NCBI GenBank assembly: GCA_003223395.1 | Contig: QHUZ01000022.1 | Coordinates: 1 to 64,000, forward strand | Reading direction: 5' to 3' | Origin: Gemmatimonadota bacterium | GTDB lineage: Bacteria; Gemmatimonadota; Gemmatimonadetes; Gemmatimonadales; GWC2-71-9 | Length of the DNA: 64,000 nucleotides | Shown: positions 19,079 through 29,015 of the stretch, one piece after another | Position numbering within the stretch: position 1 is the first letter of the stretch | Layout of the letters: each line of letters starts with the position of its first letter | Made by a program: the position numbers and the translations under genes | Notes under the pieces: model-generated | The model's input: only the letters and a program-made list of their open reading frames with translations | Database searches by the model: none | Told to the model about the DNA's origin: nothing

Positions 19079-19837
19079 ATGTTCCCGTACAAGGACGAGA
19101 ACCCCACCGAGCGCCCCGCTGTCATCACCGTTTCCATAATCATCGCGAATGTGCTCGCCTTCCTTCTTGTACAAGGGGCAGGGGCGCAGGGGCCGCTGGC
19201 CCGGTCAGTCTGCGACCTCGGTCTCATCCCGGCCGAAATCCTTCATAACGCCCGCCCCGGGAGTGGCGTGGAGCTCGCCCCCGGCGTGGTGTGCATGGTG
19301 AATGCAGTACCGAAGTACTGGACCGTGATTACCTCGATGTTCATGCACGGCGGCTGGTTTCACCTCATCGGGAACATGCTGTTCATGTGGGTCTTCGGGA
19401 ACAACATCGAGGACGCGATGGGGCACGGGAAGTTTCTCATCTTCTACCTGCTGTGCGGGGTCGTGGCCGCCGCCACGCAGACGTTCATCAGTCCCCATTC
19501 GATCGTACCTATGATCGGCGCGTCGGGAGCGATCAGCGGCGTCCTGGGTGCGTACCTGTTGCTCTATCCCCGGGTGCGCGTGCACACGCTGATCATCCTG
19601 CCGATCTACATCACGACCGTCGCGCTCCCCGCCTGGGTGATGCTGGGCTATTGGGGGCTGATCCAGCTGCTCAGCGGGCTCGGCAGTCTCCGCGAGATCG
19701 ACAAGGGCGGCGTCGCGTTCTTCGCGCACGTCGGCGGCTTTATCGCGGGGCTGGTGCTGGTGCGGCTGTTTGCGTCGGATGAGGTGCTGCGCCGCCGGCC
19801 GACGCAGCCGGAGTCGTACTATCGCTATCGCAGCTAG
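19079..19837 (+). CDS. Rhomboid-family intramembrane serine protease
   Basis: A 252-residue membrane protease. N-terminal FPYKDENPTERPAVIT leads into TM1. Catalytic residues are Ser in IGASGAISGVLGAYL and His in FFAHVGGFIAGLVL, plus the HGGWFHLIGNMLFMWVFGNNIEDAMG loop that stabilises the oxyanion, all typical of bacterial rhomboids. The C-terminus is short and cytosolic. The spacer upstream holds the repeat described above. The stop codon overlaps the remnant phoU 3' end (convergent). Confidence 0.93.
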   Translation: MFPYKDENPTERPAVITVSIIIANVLAFLLVQGAGAQGPLARSVCDLGLIPAEILHNARPGSGVELAPGVVCMVNAVPKYWTVITSMFMHGGWFHLIGNMLFMWVFGNNIEDAMGHGKFLIFYLLCGVVAAATQTFISPHSIVPMIGASGAISGVLGAYLLLYPRVRVHTLIILPIYITTVALPAWVMLGYWGLIQLLSGLGSLREIDKGGVAFFAHVGGFIAGLVLVRLFASDEVLRRRPTQPESYYRYRS

Positions 19838-20302
19838 CCCTCAGCATGGTGCTTTATCGATTTCCCTTCCACTAGAAAGACAACGTCCTCGGCAATATTC
19901 GTCGCCAGGTCGGCGACACGCTCTAGGTTCCGGCTCACCAGCGGGAACGATCGGGCGACTCGCGAGGAGCCGCTCGGCCGATTGCGCGATGTTGACGGCG
20001 TGATCGCCGACGCGCTCCAGGTCGTTGGAGATCTTCATCGCGGCGGTGAGGAAGCGCAGGTCGCGGGCCATCGGCTGCTGGGTCGCGAGCAGCCGGATCA
20101 CCGTCTCCTCGACCTCGAGCTCGAGCTTGTCGATGTCCTTATCGCCGAGGATGACCTGACTCGCTTTGTCGCCGTCGCGCTGCAGCACCGCTTCCACAGC
20201 CGCGGCGAGGGCGGCCTGCGCCTCACCCGACATGTTGAGCAGCGCGACTTTGAGCTCCGACAGCTCGTCGTGGAAATGCCGATGACTCGCTTGTGCATTC
20301 AT
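19834..20302 (-). pseudogene. phoU: phoU with an internal deletion and frameshift
   Basis: PhoU represses PhoR/Pst signalling when phosphate is plentiful and normally has ~220 residues in two three-helix bundles. Here ATG 20302 opens a normal first bundle (FHDELSELKVALLNMSGEA ... NDLERVGDHAVNIAQSAERLL). After ASRPIVP the frame drifts into PAGEPEPRACRRP. One base over, the genuine C-terminus is legible: LVSRNLERVADLATNIAED, then FLVEGKSIKHHAEG and TAG at 19834-19836. About 70 residues are therefore missing between the halves. It sits downstream of pstB with a 4-nt overlap at its start. Loss of PhoU would be expected to derepress the Pho regulon if real. Confidence 0.8.
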
Positions 20303-21069
20303 CCGAACCTTCCGGTTATGTACGCTTCAGTGCGTTCGTCGGTGGGCCGAGTAAAGACCTGCTGCGTCACGCCGAACTCCACCAGGCGGCCCACGTAGAA
20401 GAATCCCGTGTAATCTGAAACCCGTGCCGCCTGCTGCATGTTGTGCGTCACGATAACGATCGTGTACGTCTTTTTCAGTTCCACGAGCAGCTCTTCGATA
20501 CGCTGGGTCGCAATGGGATCCAGTGCCGAGCAGGGCTCGTCCATTAACAGGACCTCCGGCTCGTTCGCCAGCGCCCGCGCGATGCACAGGCGCTGTTGCT
20601 GTCCGCCGGAGAGCGCCGTCCCCGGCTCGCGCAGCCGGTCGGAGACTTCGTCCCACAATGCTGCCTGCCGCAGGGCGCGCTCGACGCGGTCGGGAAGCTC
20701 GCGCGCCGGGGCGAGGGCGTTCAGCCGCGGGCCGTAGGCAACGTTGTCATACACGGGTTTGGGAAACGGATTGGGCCGCTGGAACACCATGCCGATGCGG
20801 CGCCGCAAGGCCACGACGTCGGTCCCTGGCGCGAAGATCGAGCCCTCATCGAGCAGGATGTCTCCCTCGTGCCGCGCACCCGGCGTGAGATCGTGCAGCC
20901 GGTTGACGGAGCGCAGGAACGTCGTCTTGCCGCAGCCCGACGGCCCGATCAGCGCGGTGATCGCGTTGGGCGGAATGGCGCACGAGACCTCATGCAACGC
21001 CTGCGTCGGGCCGTACCAGAAGCTGTAGGCCTGGGACTCCAGGACGGCCGTCGTTCGCACAGCGCTCAT
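20299..21069 (-). CDS. pstB: Phosphate ABC transporter ATP-binding protein PstB (copy 1)
   Basis: ATPase of the high-affinity phosphate importer, 256 residues. Walker A is GPSGCGKTT, the Q-loop is VFQRPNPFP (a PstB hallmark), the signature is [15 protein letters not shown], Walker B is [13 protein letters not shown] and the H-loop is [14 protein letters not shown]. The terminal AYITGRFG is family-specific. It has ATGA-type overlaps with both the second pstB upstream and phoU downstream. D-loop residues read CSALDP rather than the usual TSALDP. Confidence 0.95.
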
Positions 21070-21842
21070 CCAAACCGCCCGGTGATGTACGCCTCAGTCT
21101 GCTCGACCTTCGGCTTGGTGAAGAGTTCGTCGGTGCGTCCGACCTCGATGAGGCTACCGAGATACATGAACGCCGTACAGTCGGAGACGCGTGCCGCCTG
21201 CTGCATGTTGTGGGTCACGATCACGATCGTGTAGAGGCGCTTCAATGCGTGGCACAGCTCTTCGATGCGTTGCGTTCCCGCGGGGTCCAGTGAGGCTGTG
21301 GGCTCGTCGAGCAGCAGAATCTCCGGCTGGGGAGCGACCGCGCGCGCGATGCAGAGCCGCTGCTGCTGTCCACCCGACAAATCGAGCGCACTGGTGTGCA
21401 GCCGATCCTTCACTTCCTCCCACAGCGCCGCCTGTTGCAGCGCGCGGGACACGGCATCGTCCAGCTCCGGTCTCGGCTTGCGTCCGTTGACCTTGAGCCC
21501 CGCAGCGACGTTGTCGTAGATCGACATCGTCGGGAACGGCGTGGGACGCTGGAAGACCATCCCGATGCGGCGCCGCAGCTCGACCGGATTCACATCGGGA
21601 GCGTAGATGTTCACGGTGTCGAGCAAGACTTCGCCATCGACGGTCGCGCCCGCGGTCAGCTCGTGCATGCGGTTCAGGCAGCGGAGCAGCGTGCTCTTGC
21701 CGCATCCCGACGGGCCGATGATCGCCGTGACGGTGTTCGCGGGGAACAGGAGGGACACATCCCGCACCGCGCGATGTTGTCCGAACAGCGCCGTGAGATG
21801 GGCTGTCTCGAGCCGCAGCCGAGTGTTAGCGGATGCTACCAT
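21066..21842 (-). CDS. pstB: Phosphate ABC transporter ATP-binding protein PstB (copy 2)
   Basis: A second PstB of 258 residues with Walker [11 protein letters not shown]-loop [17 protein letters not shown], signature [15 protein letters not shown], Walker [14 protein letters not shown] and C-terminal AYITGRFG. The two copies are clearly related but well diverged across their length, so the duplication is old. It follows pstA with a 17-nt overlap. One pstA-pstC pair is served by two ATPases; they could form a heterodimer or be alternates. Confidence 0.95.
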
Positions 21843-22674
21843 AGCGTTGCCGCGTGACCCAACGGGCGGCGAGCGAGATGATCAGCACCAGCCCCATCAG
21901 CACGAGCGCGGATGCCCACGCGATCCGATGCCACTCATCGAACGGGCCGGTGGCGTACACGTAGATCTGGAGTGACAGGGTCTGCATCGGCTGGTTGACG
22001 TTCACCGTGAAGTTCAGGTTGCCCAGCGCCGTGAAGAGGAGCGGCGCGGTCTCCCCCGCAATGCGGGCGATTCCCACGAGGCAGCCGGTGACGATGCCGC
22101 CCATCGCGGTGCGCGCCACGACTTTCAGCGACGTCCGCCAGCGCGGGTACCCGAGCGCCAGCGCCGCCTCGCGCAACGAATTGGGCACCAGGCGCACCAT
22201 CTCCTCGGTGGTGCGCGCCAGCATCGGGATCATCAGGATCGCGAGCGCGACACTGCCCGCGAGCGCCGAGAAGTGTCCGGTCGGCTTGACGATGAACGTC
22301 CACCCCACGATGCCGACGACGATCGACGGCGTCCCATTCAAGACGTCCGCGATGAATCGCACCAGGAACCCCAGCCGTCCGGAGCCGTACTCGGCCAGAT
22401 ACATCCCCGCGCCGACGCCGATCGGCACCCCGATCAACGCGGCAACCCCGACGATGATCGCGGTCCCCACGATGGCGTTGGCCACACCGCCCCCCGATTG
22501 TCCTGCGGGCACGGGGCTCTTGGTGAAGAACGCCCAGTCGATCGACGAGGCGCCCTTCACGATGAGATTGCCCAGGATCAGCACCAGGGCGAGCACCGCG
22601 GTGAACGAGAGGATGACGACGAGCGCCGTCATGATGCGGCTCGTTAGGTGGCGGCGAAACGCGCTCGCGCTCAC
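21826..22674 (-). CDS. pstA: Phosphate ABC transporter permease PstA
   Basis: A membrane-spanning subunit of 282 residues with six TM helices. The EAA cytoplasmic loop is [20 protein letters not shown], and [12 protein letters not shown] is characteristic of PstA. The large periplasmic loop carries [18 protein letters not shown]. The GTG start overlaps the pstC stop (GTGA). It pairs with PstC to form the translocation pore. Confidence 0.95.
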
Positions 22675-23615
22675 AGTGCTCGGCTTCCCACCGCTGCGCC
22701 GCGCGCGACGCGCCAGATCAGAATGCGCGCGATGGCGTTCACTGCCACCGTCAACACAAAGAGGATCAGGCCGACTTCCATGAGGGCGGACTGGTACGTA
22801 GCGGTGGTCGCTTCACTGAACTCGTTTGCGATTGCGGCCGCCATCGTGTAGGCCGGCTGGAGCAGCGACACGCTGATGTCGTGGCGGTTTCCGATCACCA
22901 TCGTCACCGCCATCGTCTCTCCCAGCGCGCGGCCGAGACCGAGGATGATGGCGCCGATCAATCCGGCGCGCCCGTACGGCAGCACGGCCGAGCGTACGGC
23001 TTCCCAGCGCGTCGCGCCCATCGCGAGTGCCGCTTCGCGCTGGCTCGTGGGGACGGCGAGCAGCACTTCGCGCGATACGGCGGCGATGTACGGCACGATC
23101 ATGATCGCGAGAATGACACCACCTGCCAGCAGCGAATTGCCATAGAACACGCCCTGGAGGAACGGCGTCCAACCGAACACCGCTTTGAGCGGCGGCACGA
23201 CGTAGCTGCGCAGAAAGGGAATCAGGACAAAGATCCCCCACATGCCGTAGACGACGCTGGGAATCGCGGCGAGCAGCTCGACCAGAAAGGCCACCGGCTG
23301 GCGCAGCCGGCGCGGCGCGAACTCCGTCAGGAAAATCGCCACGCTGAGGGCGAGCGGCACAGCGATCAGCAATGCCAGCAGGGACGACGCCAGCGTGCCG
23401 AAGATCATGGGCGCCGCGCCGTACACCTCGCTCACGGGATCCCAGGTTGACGTCACGAGGAATGACGCACCGAACCGCTTGACCGCCGGCCATGCGTTCG
23501 TGAACAGGACGCCGAGGATGATGACGATCAGCAGCGGGAGGGCGAGCGCGAATCCGGTCAGCACCTGCCGATAAATGCGGTCGCTGCGATCTCTGCCGAG
23601 GAGGGGACTGGTCAT
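22671..23615 (-). CDS. pstC: Phosphate ABC transporter permease PstC
   Basis: A permease of 314 residues with six TM helices. Landmarks are the WDPVSEVYGAAPMIFGTLASSL segment, AAIPSVVYGMWGIFVLIPF, and the EAA loop QREAALAMGATRWEAVRSAVLP with GLGRALGETMAVTMVIGN. The start is ATG 23615. About 35-65 nt upstream lies a triple 11-bp-phased GTNAC site and a long hairpin separating it from pstS, suggesting its own regulated initiation or mRNA processing. Confidence 0.95.
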   Translation of the reverse strand: MTSPLLGRDRSDRIYRQVLTGFALALPLLIVIILGVLFTNAWPAVKRFGASFLVTSTWDPVSEVYGAAPMIFGTLASSLLALLIAVPLALSVAIFLTEFAPRRLRQPVAFLVELLAAIPSVVYGMWGIFVLIPFLRSYVVPPLKAVFGWTPFLQGVFYGNSLLAGGVILAIMIVPYIAAVSREVLLAVPTSQREAALAMGATRWEAVRSAVLPYGRAGLIGAIILGLGRALGETMAVTMVIGNRHDISVSLLQPAYTMAAAIANEFSEATTATYQSALMEVGLILFVLTVAVNAIARILIWRVARGAAVGSRAL

Positions 23616-23651
23616 CGCGCCGGAAACCTACCGGCGCTCCATGGACTGTCC

Positions 23652-23679
23652 GTCACAGCGGTGTAACGGAATTGTCACC
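23652..23679. promoter_or_regulatory. Candidate Pho box between pstS and pstC (three 11-bp-phased repeats)
   Basis: GTCACA (23652), GTAACG (23663) and GTCACC (23674) are spaced exactly 11 bp. PhoB-class OmpR-family regulators bind tandem 11-bp repeats (E. coli TGTCA-N6-TGTCA). The site lies 37-64 nt upstream of the pstC start. On the coding strand it reads GTGAC/GTTAC, so orientation relative to E. coli boxes appears reversed, but the half-site is nearly palindromic. The right repeat overlaps the left arm of the hairpin. Confidence 0.6.
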
Positions 23680-23710
23680 GAGAGGAGGGCGCCTCCCGGT
23701 GACAATTCCG
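23667..23710 (-). terminator. Long hairpin directly after pstS (processing/attenuation element)
   Basis: Arms CGGAATTGTCACCG (23667-23680) and CGGTGACAATTCCG (23697-23710) are perfectly complementary over 14 bp. An inner GGAGG/CCTCC helix caps the stem. It begins 6 nt after the pstS stop codon. There is no U-tract, so it is more likely an mRNA-stabilising or partial-termination hairpin that lets the binding protein be made in excess over the permease, as seen in other pst operons. Confidence 0.7.
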
Positions 23711-23715
23711 CCTGC

Positions 23716-24756
23716 TTACAGGACTGCGCGACCGCCTGCGGTGACGCTCTTGAGGTGCGCCTGAATCCAGGGGCGCAGCTGCTGCGGCAGCGGGGCGTAA
23801 CCGAGCTCCGGGGCTTTCGCCTGGCCCTCGCTCTCCGCCCACCAGATGAACTGCACCAGCGACCGCGCCTTCGCCGTGTCGCTGTAGCTCTTGTGCACCA
23901 GCAGCCAGGTGAAGCTCGCGGCTGGATACGCCCGCGCGCCCGGCGAGTTGGTGATCGAAACCCGGAAGTCGGTATTCGGGCCCATCTCCTTCATTGCACC
24001 GGCGGCAGCGGCAGTCACCGACTCGAGCGAGGCGGTGATCCAGTTGCCCGACTGATTCTTCAGCACCGCGAACGGCATCTTGTTGATCAGGGCGTATCCG
24101 AGCTCGATGTAGCCGATCGCGCCCGGCGTCTGCCGGACGGTTGCGGCGACACCTTCATTGCCCCGGCCACCGAGACCGACCGGCCAGCTGACCGACGTGC
24201 CCTTGCCGACCTTCTGGGCCCACTCGGGGCTGACCTTCGAGAGGTAGTCGGTCCAGACGAACGACGTGCCCGAGCCGTCGGAGCGGTGCACGACGATGAT
24301 GTCCTGGTTCGGCAGCGTGACGCCGGGATTGATGCTTGCCAACCGGGCGTCATTCCACTTCGTGACTTTGCCGAGGAAGATGTCTGCGAGGACGTCAGGC
24401 GAGATGCGAATCGGCTGCGAAACCTCGGGCAGCGTGTATGCCGCCACGACCGCGCCCAGCACCATCGGGATGTGGAGCACGTTGCCCTGGATCGCGGTGA
24501 TGGCCGAGTCGCTCATCGGAGCGTCGGTGGCGCCAAAATCGACAGTGCCGTCCGAGAACTGACGAATGCCGCCGCCAGATCCGATCGACTGATAGTTCAA
24601 CTTCACGTCGGGATGCGACTGATTGTACGTGAGCATCCAGTCCGAATAGATGATGTTCGGGAACGTCGCCCCGGCGCCGTTCAGCGTGACCTGCGCGGCC
24701 GCCGGGAGGGCGGTGCCGAGCAGGGCGGCGAGGGAGAGATAGCGTGTGGGCTTCAC
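23716..24756 (-). CDS. pstS: Phosphate-binding periplasmic protein PstS
   Basis: Solute-binding protein that delivers Pi to PstCAB, 346 residues with a signal peptide (YLSLAALLGTALPAAAQ). Pi-contacting motifs are present: LNGAGATFP at the N-terminus, GSGGGIRQFSDGTVDFGATDAP and HRSDGSGTSFVWTDYLS. The mature C-terminus YAPLPQQLRPWIQAHL is typical. The GTG start is preceded by GAGAGGA. It lies 29 nt downstream of the porin gene and in the same operon. Confidence 0.96.
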   Translation of the reverse strand: MKPTRYLSLAALLGTALPAAAQVTLNGAGATFPNIIYSDWMLTYNQSHPDVKLNYQSIGSGGGIRQFSDGTVDFGATDAPMSDSAITAIQGNVLHIPMVLGAVVAAYTLPEVSQPIRISPDVLADIFLGKVTKWNDARLASINPGVTLPNQDIIVVHRSDGSGTSFVWTDYLSKVSPEWAQKVGKGTSVSWPVGLGGRGNEGVAATVRQTPGAIGYIELGYALINKMPFAVLKNQSGNWITASLESVTAAAAGAMKEMGPNTDFRVSITNSPGARAYPAASFTWLLVHKSYSDTAKARSLVQFIWWAESEGQAKAPELGYAPLPQQLRPWIQAHLKSVTAGGRAVL

Positions 24757-24785
24757 AGAGGTTGTCCTCTCGTCAGGGTCGGGTT

Positions 24786-25778
24786 TCAGAACACGAACTG
24801 CGCTTGAAACAGCGCTTGATTGGTTGCAGTCGCGCCGCTCTCAAACGACTGGCGATCGAGGTCTGCGAGCAGCCGCACGTTGGGCGACAGCTGATACGAG
24901 ACGCCGCCGATGATGCGGGTGTTTTTGTTGTTGGCGACGGACGTATTGGGATCGACGATATCGACGCGCCCGATCACCGCAATCTTGCTGTTCGTCAAGT
25001 GATAGACCCCGAACGCGCTAATGATGCTCCCGGTCTGCGTCGAGTCTTTCCTGGAGACGTACTCTCCGGCGAGTGTCAGCAGTTGTGACCGGTAAGAGAC
25101 CTGGCCGAGGAAGCGGTTGCGGTCATTGCCGGCGAATGCGGGCCCGTATTTGCCCACGCCCGCGTACCCCGTGAGGCGCAGGCCCCCAACGCGGCTGGCG
25201 TCGTTCGTCGTCATGACTCGGACCGAGACACGCGCCTCGAGATCCTTGTGGAAGTCGCCGGTGCCGCCCGAGTAGCCTTCCCCGTTGACGACCGCGACCT
25301 GGCCGTTCACCTGGTCATTGTTCCATTTGCCGTCCACTCCGAAGCCGATGTCCGACGACGTCAAGGCGCCGTTGCGGTCGACCGCGATTGTGCCCTGCAT
25401 GCGGTAGTCCCACAGTGTTTCCTCGAAGTCCACGAACGGCGTCTGCATCATGCCTAGCTTGTAGGTGAGGCTGCTGCCGGATGGCGTCCACGCCGCGAAG
25501 GCGTACTTGAGGCGGACCACCTGGTTCGTGACGCCGCTCGGGATGATGTCGGCCGTCACCCGGGTGGTGATGCCGCCTGAAAAGCGGCCAAGGACGTTCA
25601 CGTACGCGCGCGTGACGTCGAAGGTGTTGGTGTGAACCGCGGCGTCTGTGTACTGATACTGCGTGTAGACGACGCCTCCGACGGTTACTTGCGGGGCCTG
25701 CGCAGCGGGCGCCTGCGCTGCCGCAGGCAGCGCGACGATGCTCAGTGCGCTCAGCACTGCCAAGAGCCTTGCGTGCAC
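24786..25778 (-). CDS. Outer-membrane porin, phosphate-selective (OprO/OprP-like)
   Basis: A beta-barrel protein of about 330 residues with a signal peptide (LLAVLSALSIVALPAAAQAP), alternating hydrophobic strands and a terminal phenylalanine (ALFQAQFVF), as expected for outer-membrane porins. The GVVYTQYQYTD start and VRLKYAFAAWTPSGSSLTYKLGMMQTPF segment resemble OprO/OprP. The ORF begins at 25784, but GTG 25778 has AGGAG at a better 5-nt spacing. Position directly before pstS and a Pho-like box upstream suggest Pi entry across the outer membrane. Selectivity is inferred. Confidence 0.75.
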   Translation of the reverse strand: MHARLLAVLSALSIVALPAAAQAPAAQAPQVTVGGVVYTQYQYTDAAVHTNTFDVTRAYVNVLGRFSGGITTRVTADIIPSGVTNQVVRLKYAFAAWTPSGSSLTYKLGMMQTPFVDFEETLWDYRMQGTIAVDRNGALTSSDIGFGVDGKWNNDQVNGQVAVVNGEGYSGGTGDFHKDLEARVSVRVMTTNDASRVGGLRLTGYAGVGKYGPAFAGNDRNRFLGQVSYRSQLLTLAGEYVSRKDSTQTGSIISAFGVYHLTNSKIAVIGRVDIVDPNTSVANNKNTRIIGGVSYQLSPNVRLLADLDRQSFESGATATNQALFQAQFVF

Positions 25779-25862
25779 GGTCACTCCTCAAGACGTGGGT
25801 AAATGTTGACTGCGCTCACGGGTGGAAACCTGGTCAGTCGGCATCACTGGCGTGAGTCGGCG

Positions 25863-25882
25863 TTGTCACGATTTCGTAACAG
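25863..25882. promoter_or_regulatory. Candidate Pho box upstream of the porin-pst operon
   Basis: GTCACG (25865) and GTAACA (25876) are two GTNAC half-sites with 11-bp spacing, in the sequence TTGTCACGATTTCGTAACAG. The site is ~85 nt upstream of the porin start. It matches the spacing and half-site of the boxes at 23652 and 26519. The remaining 25883-26026 sequence shows no recognisable gene apart from an out-of-frame hydrophobic tail (LGLAGAIGASALFL) after the glycosyltransferase remnant. Confidence 0.55.
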
Positions 25883-26026
25883 CCACACGCGCAGATAGCG
25901 GAGCCGTGCTGGCCTCCGCTACCTGGGCACCCGGACGGTCGGCCGTGCAATCCGCCGCCGGGCACAGAGAGGACGATTAGCGCAGAAAGAGGGCGGACGC
26001 GCCGATAGCGCCGGCCAGCCCAAGTA

Positions 26027-26485
26027 CTACGCGGCGAACGGGGCCGCTCCCGTGCCCGCCAGAACGGCCGCGCTCGCGTACTGCTTGAGCAGCGCGATGC
26101 TCTCGCGGAAGCCGCCCGCATCGGCGGCACCGACCGCCAGACCGGAGGCCATCGCTTCGAGGGCCACGAGGCCGCACGTCGCGGTTCGGGATGGGAGCAC
26201 ACAGATGTCCGCGCTCGCATAAACGTCCGCGAGCTTGTCGCGATCGAGGAAGCGCGCGACGACGGCGAACTGGGGCAGCGACAGCCGGATCGCCGGATAC
26301 GGCGGGAAGGACGCGGACGGAATGCGCAGCTGCGTCGGGTCCAGACTCGCGTAGCCAGGATACCGCGGTGCGACGATCGCGACGTTGTGGCCGAATTCGC
26401 GGAGCACATTCGCGATCCGGACGACCACTGTCGTGACGCCGTTGACCTGCGGCGTGTAGGTGTCGGTGACGAGCGCAATTCGCAC
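26027..26485 (-). pseudogene. GT4-family glycosyltransferase lacking its central region
   Basis: The N-terminus VRIALVTDTYTPQVNGVTTV ... GHNVAIVAPRYPG is the start of a GT4 glycosyltransferase (MgtA/SqdX-like). After AIRLSLPQFAVVARFLDR the sequence jumps in frame to the donor-binding C-terminal motif LADVYASADICVLPSRTATC and ALEAMASGLAV, with ~170 intervening residues absent. Just after GGFRESI it ends abruptly. An intact member has ~380 residues and this has ~152. GTG 26485 is preceded at 33 nt by a triple Pho-like box, so the intact gene may have served glycolipid synthesis during phosphate limitation (inference). It cannot be active as it stands. Confidence 0.7.
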
Positions 26486-26518
26486 GCGCCAATGTTGCGC
26501 GCGGCCGGTCAACGGTCG

Positions 26519-26546
26519 GTGACGTACGCGTTACGGCTGTGTAACG
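26519..26546. promoter_or_regulatory. Candidate Pho box (three 11-bp-phased repeats) before the glycosyltransferase
   Basis: GTGACG (26519), GTTACG (26530) and GTAACG (26541) are spaced exactly 11 bp. They occupy the 65-nt gap between the phoR stop (26551) and the glycosyltransferase start (26485). A CAACAT hexamer about 20 nt past the box could be a -10 element, which would make the transcript nearly leaderless. It is the cleanest of the three sites. Confidence 0.65.
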
Positions 26547-26550
26547 AGGG

Positions 26551-28260
26551 CTAAGTCGCGAAGTACAAAAGGATTGTGGTGCCGCGGCCGAGCTCGCTCT
26601 CGGCTTCGACGCGGCCGCCATGAGCCTCGACGAGGTGTTTGACGATGGCCAAGCCGAGCCCGGTGCCGCCTTCCTGGCGCGACCGACCGGGGTCCACGCG
26701 GTAGAAGCGCTCGAAGATGCGGGGCAGGTGATCCGCCCCAATGCCGGAGCCGGTGTCACTGACTCGCACGACAATGTGGTCTCCGGCTCGCTGCGCGGCG
26801 ACCCGGATCTTGCCGCCCTGCGGCGTGTGCCGAAGGGCGTTGTCGAACAGGTTCGTGAAGATCTGCCGCAGTGCCTCGGGGTCGCTGTCGATGGACGCCG
26901 CGTGCGTTGCGCTCTCGAACGCAATCTCCCGGCTCGCGGCGCGCTCGGCGAACGGACGCCATGCCTCACGTGCGGCCGCCTCGACGTCAACCGGTCGCGG
27001 TTCGGGCTCCCAGGCTCCCGATTCGATGCGCGACAGATCGAGCAGGTCATCGACCAGGCGCTGCATGCGGCGAGCATTCTCGACGATCGTTTGGGCGAAG
27101 CCCGTGGCCTGCGCGTCCAGCGACTCGCTCGCCAGCGTTTCGGCGTAGCCGGCGATCGCCGTTAGCGGCGTCTTCAGCTCGTGCGACACGTTCGCCACGA
27201 AATCGCGCCGGACGGTTTCGAGGCGCCGCAGGCTCGTGACGTCACTGAGCACGAGGAGTGTGCCGCCTTCGGCCAGCGGCCGCGCGGAGAAGACGACGGT
27301 GCGGTCCCCGAGGTCCAGCTCCCGTCCCTCGACGACCGCGCCGGTCAGGACCTCGCGCATGAGCGCGCGATGCGCGCGGTCGTGGAACAGCTCGCCGAGC
27401 GGCGGCAGCGGCTCCGTCTCGCCATAGCCGAGCAGCTGGCGCGCCGCCGCGTTGGTTTCGATGACGACGCCACGCCCGTCGGCGGCGAGGACGCCGTCCG
27501 ACAGCGCTTCGAGGAGCGTGCGGGATTCCTCGCGCTCGCGCCGCAAGTCGTCGAAGCGCCGCTCCAGCTCGTGGTGCATGGCTCGGAGCGAGTCCACGTG
27601 ATGCGCCAGCTCCGGCACCCGTACGTCCGGGAATTCGGCCGGACGACCGGCGGCGATGTCCCGGGCCGCGTCCGCGATGCGCAGCAGCGGCCGCGCGAGC
27701 GCGCGGGCGAGCAGCCACGCGACGAAGCCTGCGGCGACCAGCATCAGGAGTCCGGCGACCGCGACCGCACGTTGTACCGCGTGGACCTGCGCGTCTACCA
27801 CGGCCAGCGTCGTGGAGACACGCGTGATCGCAATTCCGGAAGGTCCGTCGCGGACCGCCACGTACAGCTGGCGTTCGTTGGTCGACACGCTCAGGCGCTC
27901 GTTCATTCCGACGCCACGCGCCGAGTCGAACGCCGCGCGGACCTCGGGGCGGTTGCGATGATTCTCGAGGCGAGGAAGGGCATCGCGGCCGAATTCCGTG
28001 TCGCCGCGGACGTGGCCCGCGGAGTCGATGAGGGTCACGCGACGTCCCAGCCGCGCGCCCGCGAGCGCGGCGAAGTCCGGCCAGTGCGAGGAATCGGGCG
28101 GAGTGACGGTGGCGACTAGTCGCGCTTCGCGTTCCAGCTCGTTGGCGATCTGCTGCTCGAGGTGCCGCCGGAGCAGCACGTCGGTGGCGAGGATGGATCC
28201 CACGACCGCGGCAGTCACGAGCAATCCGATGCTCGCGAAGAGCCGCGTGGCGAGTCTCAT
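26551..28260 (-). CDS. phoR: Phosphate-regulon-type sensor histidine kinase (PhoR-like)
   Basis: A 569-residue membrane sensor with TM1 at ~6-28, a periplasmic domain, TM2 at ~165-188, HAMP, a PAS domain (LLEALSDGVLAADGRGVVIET, ~250-345), HisKA with His near residue 360 (VANVSHELKTPLT), and HATPase_c with N box (NLFDNALRHTPQG), DTGSGIG and GGTGLGLAIVKHL. ATG 28260 gives the natural membrane start MRLATRLFASIGLLV and overlaps phoB by 4 nt. A large periplasmic domain differs from E. coli PhoR. Assignment rests on neighbours (pst, phoU) and architecture. Confidence 0.85.
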   Translation of the reverse strand: MRLATRLFASIGLLVTAAVVGSILATDVLLRRHLEQQIANELEREARLVATVTPPDSSHWPDFAALAGARLGRRVTLIDSAGHVRGDTEFGRDALPRLENHRNRPEVRAAFDSARGVGMNERLSVSTNERQLYVAVRDGPSGIAITRVSTTLAVVDAQVHAVQRAVAVAGLLMLVAAGFVAWLLARALARPLLRIADAARDIAAGRPAEFPDVRVPELAHHVDSLRAMHHELERRFDDLRREREESRTLLEALSDGVLAADGRGVVIETNAAARQLLGYGETEPLPPLGELFHDRAHRALMREVLTGAVVEGRELDLGDRTVVFSARPLAEGGTLLVLSDVTSLRRLETVRRDFVANVSHELKTPLTAIAGYAETLASESLDAQATGFAQTIVENARRMQRLVDDLLDLSRIESGAWEPEPRPVDVEAAAREAWRPFAERAASREIAFESATHAASIDSDPEALRQIFTNLFDNALRHTPQGGKIRVAAQRAGDHIVVRVSDTGSGIGADHLPRIFERFYRVDPGRSRQEGGTGLGLAIVKHLVEAHGGRVEAESELGRGTTILLYFAT

Positions 28261-29015
28261 GTGCGACGGCGCCGCGGAGCGGGCGTAGGTCGCTTTGGCG
28301 GGGTGACCGGCTCGCGGAACCGGTAGCCGACGGCGCGCACGGTTTCGATCCAATCACCGGCCGCGCCGAGCTTGGTGCGGAGGCGTTGGACGTGCATGTC
28401 CACCGTACGCGTCTGAATGTCGGGCTGCGCTTGCCAGACCGATTCGAGCAGCTGCGAGCGCGACTGTACCCGGTCACGGCGCTCGATCAAGCGCTCGAGC
28501 AGCTTGAACTCCGTGGCGGTGAGCTCGACTTCCTTGCCGTCCGCGGTGACGCGATGGGCCGTGCGGTCGACGACGATCGGGCCGCCGACCAACCGGCCGC
28601 CGGCCGCCACCGGTGGCGCGGCGAGACGACGCAGGATCGCGCCGACCCGCAGCACCAGCTCCTTGGGGGAGAAGGGCTTGGCCAGGTAGTCGTCGGCGCC
28701 GAGGGAGAGGCCCTTGATGCGATCGGGCTCTTCTTTGCGGGCCGTCAACAGCAACACGCCGACGTCGCGCGTCTCGTCGCGACGGCGCAACTCCGCGAGC
28801 ACCTCGAATCCGGAGTGCCCCGGCAGCATGAGATCGAGGACGACCAGATCGGGGCGTTCCTCGCGGGCCGAACGGAGCGCGTCCGCGCCGGTGCCGGCGG
28901 TGGTGACGCGGTAGCCGTCCTTTGCAAGGTGATACGCGACGAGCGCCGTGATATCGGGCTCGTCGTCCACGACGAGGATGCGATGTGGGGCGGCTGCCGC
29001 CGACTCATTCGCCAT
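28257..29015 (-). CDS. phoB: Phosphate-regulon-type response regulator (PhoB-like, OmpR family)
   Basis: A 252-residue transcription factor. The receiver (~12-125) has the acidic pair VVDDEPD, acceptor VVLDLMLPGHSGFE, Thr in LLTARKEE and Lys in LAKPFSP. A winged helix follows (~150-245) with ELTATEFKLLERLI and TRTVDMHVQRLRTKLG ... IETVRAVGYRF. ATG 29015 is chosen. It is 54 nt from the divergent nucleotidase start, so the control regions overlap. It is expected to bind the 11-bp GTNAC repeats. Confidence 0.88.
   Translation of the reverse strand: MANESAAAAPHRILVVDDEPDITALVAYHLAKDGYRVTTAGTGADALRSAREERPDLVVLDLMLPGHSGFEVLAELRRRDETRDVGVLLLTARKEEPDRIKGLSLGADDYLAKPFSPKELVLRVGAILRRLAAPPVAAGGRLVGGPIVVDRTAHRVTADGKEVELTATEFKLLERLIERRDRVQSRSQLLESVWQAQPDIQTRTVDMHVQRLRTKLGAAGDWIETVRAVGYRFREPVTPPKRPTPAPRRRRT

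Follow-up and report, generated by a model that had tools for sequence, protein, structure and literature searches.

Four-slot arrays of 11-bp GTNAC repeats as probable PHO boxes in a Gemmatimonadota phosphate locus

Which protein reads the 11-bp-phased GTNAC repeats that lie among the phosphate genes of a soil Gemmatimonadota genome, and how do these repeats stand with respect to the promoters of the genes that they precede? Gemmatimonadota have few cultured members, and a literature search found no phosphate operator described for the phylum. The window analyzed here, a 64-kb stretch of a metagenome-assembled Gemmatimonadota soil genome whose PstS is closest to those of soil Gemmatimonadetes MAGs, carries on its minus strand, in this order, phoB, phoR, a GT4 glycosyltransferase gene, a porin gene, pstS, pstC, pstA, two pstB genes and phoU. 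A first-pass annotation had read three repeat arrays in this block as the PhoB operator of the lineage. We consider it highly probable that they are indeed PHO boxes of this lineage, built on a four-slot frame that PhoB would bind, with two ways of filling the slots, an internal promoter before pstC and an operator before the glycosyltransferase gene.

All three GTNAC arrays, at 23652 (between pstS and pstC), 25865 (before the porin gene) and 26519 (before the glycosyltransferase gene), were verified as 11-bp direct repeats, with half-site positions and exact spacing as first annotated. Since GTNAC is its own reverse complement, the core cannot show which way a site points; flanking sequence, the -10 box and every target gene place the sites on the minus (gene) strand, in which they are written here. 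Within the 64-kb window the GTNAC-N6-GTNAC dyad has 5 matches against 0.44 expected, with 0 of 100 shuffles reaching 5, and the GTNAC triple occurs at 2 places in the 3.41-Mb genome, both in the Pho block (reversed-pattern control 0). We compared the regulatory stretches of 30 Gemmatimonadota pstS loci, a set chosen by PstS alone in which the motif was not used. Half-site pairs at 11, 22 and 33 bp number 46, 21 and 14, no other distance having more than 3, and alignment of these stretches yields a frame of four slots. The 25865 site has an additional half-site that had been overlooked, GTGAT at 25843-25847, and the 26519 site an additional TTGAC at 26508-26512. The porin operator then reads GTTAC-GTGAC-(GACTC)-GTGAT-N10-CAGGTT, the pstC operator GTGAC-GTTAC-GTGAC-(TCCAT)-N10-TAGGTT and the glycosyltransferase operator, which is kept in two relatives (L020 and L023), GTTAC-GTAAC-GTCAC-TTGAC (Table 1). 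The repeats behind the originally proposed triple and double forms are real; each form is part of a four-slot array.

Table 1. Features of the Pho block, with window coordinates and the basis of each assignment
Feature	Coordinates	Strand	Basis or remark
PhoB-like response regulator, presumed binder	28257..29015	-	best E. coli PhoB match in genome
PhoR-like histidine kinase	26551..28260	-	profile matches; PhoR model below curated cut-off
Glycosyltransferase operator slot 1, GTTAC	26541..26545	-	conserved in L020, L023
Glycosyltransferase operator slot 2, GTAAC	26530..26534	-	alignment
Glycosyltransferase operator slot 3, GTCAC	26519..26523	-	GTCAT in relatives
Glycosyltransferase operator slot 4, TTGAC	26508..26512	-	identical in L020, L023
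GT4 glycosyltransferase	26027..26485	-	~0.5 kb internally shorter than relatives
Porin operator slot 1, GTTAC	25876..25880	-	sequence and alignment of relatives
Porin operator slot 2, GTGAC	25865..25869	-	sequence and alignment of relatives
Porin operator slot 3, GACTC, degenerate	25854..25858	-	no half-site here in 40/42 relatives
Porin operator slot 4, GTGAT	25843..25847	-	alignment and slot 1-2-4 search of relatives
-10-like CAGGTT, predicted porin-pstS promoter	25827..25832	-	10 nt after slot 4
Porin, first gene past porin operator	24786..25784	-	PF13609
pstS	23716..24756	-	TIGR00975, 378 bits vs cut-off 205
RNA hairpin just past pstS stop	23667..23710	-	3' arm holds slot 1; no T tract
pstC operator slot 1, GTGAC, also inside hairpin arm	23674..23678	-	sequence and promoter alignment
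pstC operator slot 2, GTTAC	23663..23667	-	sequence and promoter alignment
pstC operator slot 3, GTGAC	23652..23656	-	sequence and promoter alignment
pstC operator slot 4, TCCAT	23641..23645	-	degenerate in 23/23 promoters compared
-10 box TAGGTT, predicted internal pstC promoter	23625..23630	-	10 nt after slot 4, 9 nt before pstC ATG
pstC, predicted to be driven by internal operator	22671..23615	-	PF00528

Enrichment near phosphate genes, as expected of such operators, is strong in relatives: the arrays are conserved directly upstream of porin-pstS and of pstC, and many of the sites have a PhoR or PhoB gene just before them. This conservation and the adjoining PhoR/PhoB genes support the original attribution to PhoB. 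The presumed binder shares 45% identity with E. coli PhoB (186 bits, the genome's next best reaching 159); its best NCBIfam match is TIGR02154 PhoB at 247.2 bits, below the cut-off of 296.2, and it is PhoB-like by rank and neighbours only. Another OmpR-type regulator (MtrA-, RegX3- or GlnR-like), or several of them, might instead bind these operators of phosphate genes. Besides that of 28257-29015 the genome encodes five other complete OmpR-type DNA-binding domains, at least six in all, and the nearest solved structures are those of PrrA, MtrA and RegX3. Moreover, GTnAC-n6-GTnAC is the published GlnR box, found in Streptomyces venezuelae also as four-copy tandems (PMC3087709), and the MtrA box of Streptomyces is the direct repeat GtnAcC-n5-GTnAcn (PMC13189361). 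As the core matches the GlnR box exactly and resembles the MtrA box, sequence alone cannot name the binder, and the assignment follows from target genes and neighbourhood. GlnR, an atypical OmpR-type regulator, targets nitrogen genes, whereas the conserved targets here are phosphate genes rather than nitrogen-assimilation genes; the targets of MtrA are development, osmotic stress and antibiotic genes, with no phosphate link shown. PhoR/PhoB stands beside many of the sites, and no other protein of the genome matches E. coli PhoB as well as the one in this block. We therefore judge a different binder improbable and take the arrays to be PHO boxes that are most likely bound by the neighbouring PhoB.

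The array between pstS and pstC appears to mark a second, separately controlled start point inside the pst operon. Counted from slot 1, a TANNNT begins at +48 or +49 in 23/23 pstC promoters, and the pstC ATG follows 5-11 nt past the -10 in 24/24, too short a distance for a leader that includes a ribosome-binding site; the pstC mRNA is probably leaderless. Just past the pstS stop lies a near-perfect 19-bp inverted repeat (23667-23685/23692-23710), and the 100-nt pstS-pstC gap has a folding energy of -59.1 kcal/mol (z = -6.2). With one half-site (23674-23678) inside this stem, and with a hairpin or terminator of different sequence, in several cases with a T tract, at this place in most relatives, the array could mainly be part of an RNA hairpin that terminates or stabilizes the mRNA after pstS, and not an operator. 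The hairpin of the relatives, however, is sequence-variable, stands apart from the array and usually sits upstream of the operator. In L021 and L022, the two loci whose gaps are shortest, it is weak or absent while array and -10 persist; in the window itself the stem takes in one of the three half-sites, the other two being essentially clear of it. We regard the hairpin explanation of the array as very unlikely. On the operator reading, the stem has likely come to overlap slot 1 in the window genome, and the hairpin likely attenuates or ends the transcript between the porin-pstS and pstC units.

The filling of the slots differs by gene. Searches of 102 genomes of the family found slots 1-2-4 at 49 places in 43 genomes (control 1) and slots 1-2-3 at 40 places in 36 genomes (control 2), where genome counts overstate independent events, close relatives sharing ancestry, and where, the searches being conditioned on the slots that they report, occupancy can be judged only from the controls, the slots left free in the search and the set chosen by PstS. 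By direct comparison the next gene after a 1-2-4 site is porin or PstS in 38, and Pfam contributes a further six, of which four are phosphate-selective porins, one is another porin and one a PhoU, so that 44/49 places precede porin, PstS or PhoU, some of these downstream-gene counts resting on Pfam calls for single ORFs. Relatives with the porin-type operator encode PF07396 phosphate-selective porins. Among the 31 inspected 1-2-3 sites, 24 directly precede pstC (one at a contig end) and one precedes a porin. Two filling patterns are thus split by gene, 1-2-4 at porin/PstS and 1-2-3 at pstC. In 42/42 porin-type promoters a T stands at +53 from slot 1, the remaining hexamer being weakly conserved. 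Both promoter types share the PHO box register in which a half-site about 10 nt before the -10 replaces the -35 element, with the slot 4 that occupies this place degenerate at pstC. The bare dyad behaves otherwise: it occurs at 26 places across the genome vs 13 for the control, about 15 of the 21 outside the Pho block fall inside predicted genes, and it was dropped as a regulon marker. Equal frequency in coding sequence, named in the first-pass annotation as evidence against its reading, is nearly true of this dyad and does not hold for the three-slot patterns. Chance or base composition, for which the dyad counts and the location of most other dyads in coding sequence would speak, is a practically negligible explanation of the arrays, being refuted for the three-slot forms by their excess over controls before the same genes in many genera.

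Conservation upstream of phosphate genes does not extend to PhoD-type genes, which had no sites in 19 upstream regions of relatives and were rejected as targets. An array in the genome itself, GTTAC-N17-GTGAC-N6-GTGAC, lies ~130 bp before a TIGR03397 acid phosphatase gene (L100, contig C106, about 24300-24337, minus strand). Because 11-bp pairs were found in 3/7 upstream regions of its orthologs and the 1-3-4 slot form is not commoner than the control (4 vs 3), the acid phosphatase was not upheld as a firm target and is kept as a candidate; a HAD phosphatase (L098) and an ABC ATPase (L116) are further candidate targets in this genome.

The GT4 gene has an in-frame internal gap of ~528 bp relative to L020 (358 aa) and L023, either a deletion or an assembly error. 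The phoU gene at about 19760-20302 (minus strand) appears broken: behind an intact first domain the frame changes, and of the second domain just the end follows, as though an inner part had been lost. That two genes of the same block are shortened suggests a fault in the assembly or recent decay. The pst operon also holds two adjacent pstB-like ATPase genes (20299-21842, minus strand).

On the gene strand the half-site word is (C/T)GTKACA. Its central base, which had been described as relaxed, is not free to vary: among more distant Gemmatimonadota it is T or G in 28/30 half-sites, although T, A and C stand there at the glycosyltransferase site. Upstream of pstS, Acidobacteria carry GTAAC repeats at 11 bp with a central A in 6/6 pairs, and deltaproteobacteria GTCAC, GTAAC or GTTAC with matched central bases (C/C, A/A or T/T). 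Both share the 11-bp spacing and the GT-AC frame with the window and differ in the central base, which appears to be fixed by lineage and is usually matched within an operator (L049, L056, L058, L090, L096 and others).

From these observations we propose the following mechanism. When phosphate is scarce, the kinase would phosphorylate the PhoB-like regulator, which would bind head-to-tail to the 11-bp half-sites on the minus strand. As the four-slot frame ends 10 nt before the -10, the bound regulator would replace the -35 element and recruit RNA polymerase, the slot filling being 1-2-weak-4 before porin-pstS and 1-2-3-weak before pstC. Downstream of the post-pstS hairpin, the pstC operator would create another promoter within the operon, and through its putative leaderless mRNA pstCAB-phoU could be adjusted independently of the abundant porin and PstS. 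The third operator would drive the glycosyltransferase, plausibly for phosphate-sparing lipids. That the frame is fixed to the -10, that each gene has a conserved filling of its own, and that the pstC filling yields a leaderless mRNA starting within the operon, so that binding protein and channel differ in the strength or timing of their induction, is a proposal for and against which we see the balance as even. The analysis provides for Gemmatimonadota an operator and a promoter layout that are concrete and can be tested, and it brings to light, within the pst operon, a second promoter that is conserved and probably leaderless.

How, then, do these arrays compare with known PHO boxes? Those of Streptomyces PhoP consist of several 11-nt direct repeat units, varying by promoter (PMC4415409), with the word GTTCACC, which is unlike that of the window. 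The E. coli half-site CTGTCAT is likewise not found, its TGTCA(T/C) standing against (C/T)GTKACA in Gemmatimonadota; the PHO box consensus is known to be species-dependent (PMC4415409), so CTGTCAT does not define the family. Nor has the pstS-pstC gap of E. coli a PHO box, unlike that of Gemmatimonadota. The phoA promoter of E. coli reads GTCAT-GTCAC-N10-TATAGT, and the pstS promoter of strain MG1655 CTGTCAT-AAAA-CTGTCAT-ATTC-CTTACAT-ATAA-CTGTCAC-N10-TATTTT. The triple-repeat form had been held to set the window apart from E. coli; E. coli pstS in fact has the same four 11-bp slots, with a degenerate slot 3 and the last half-site 10 nt before the -10, matching the porin-pstS type of the window even in its weak slot 3. 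Phyla thus share the four-slot frame seen at E. coli pstS, while the recognition word shifts by lineage.
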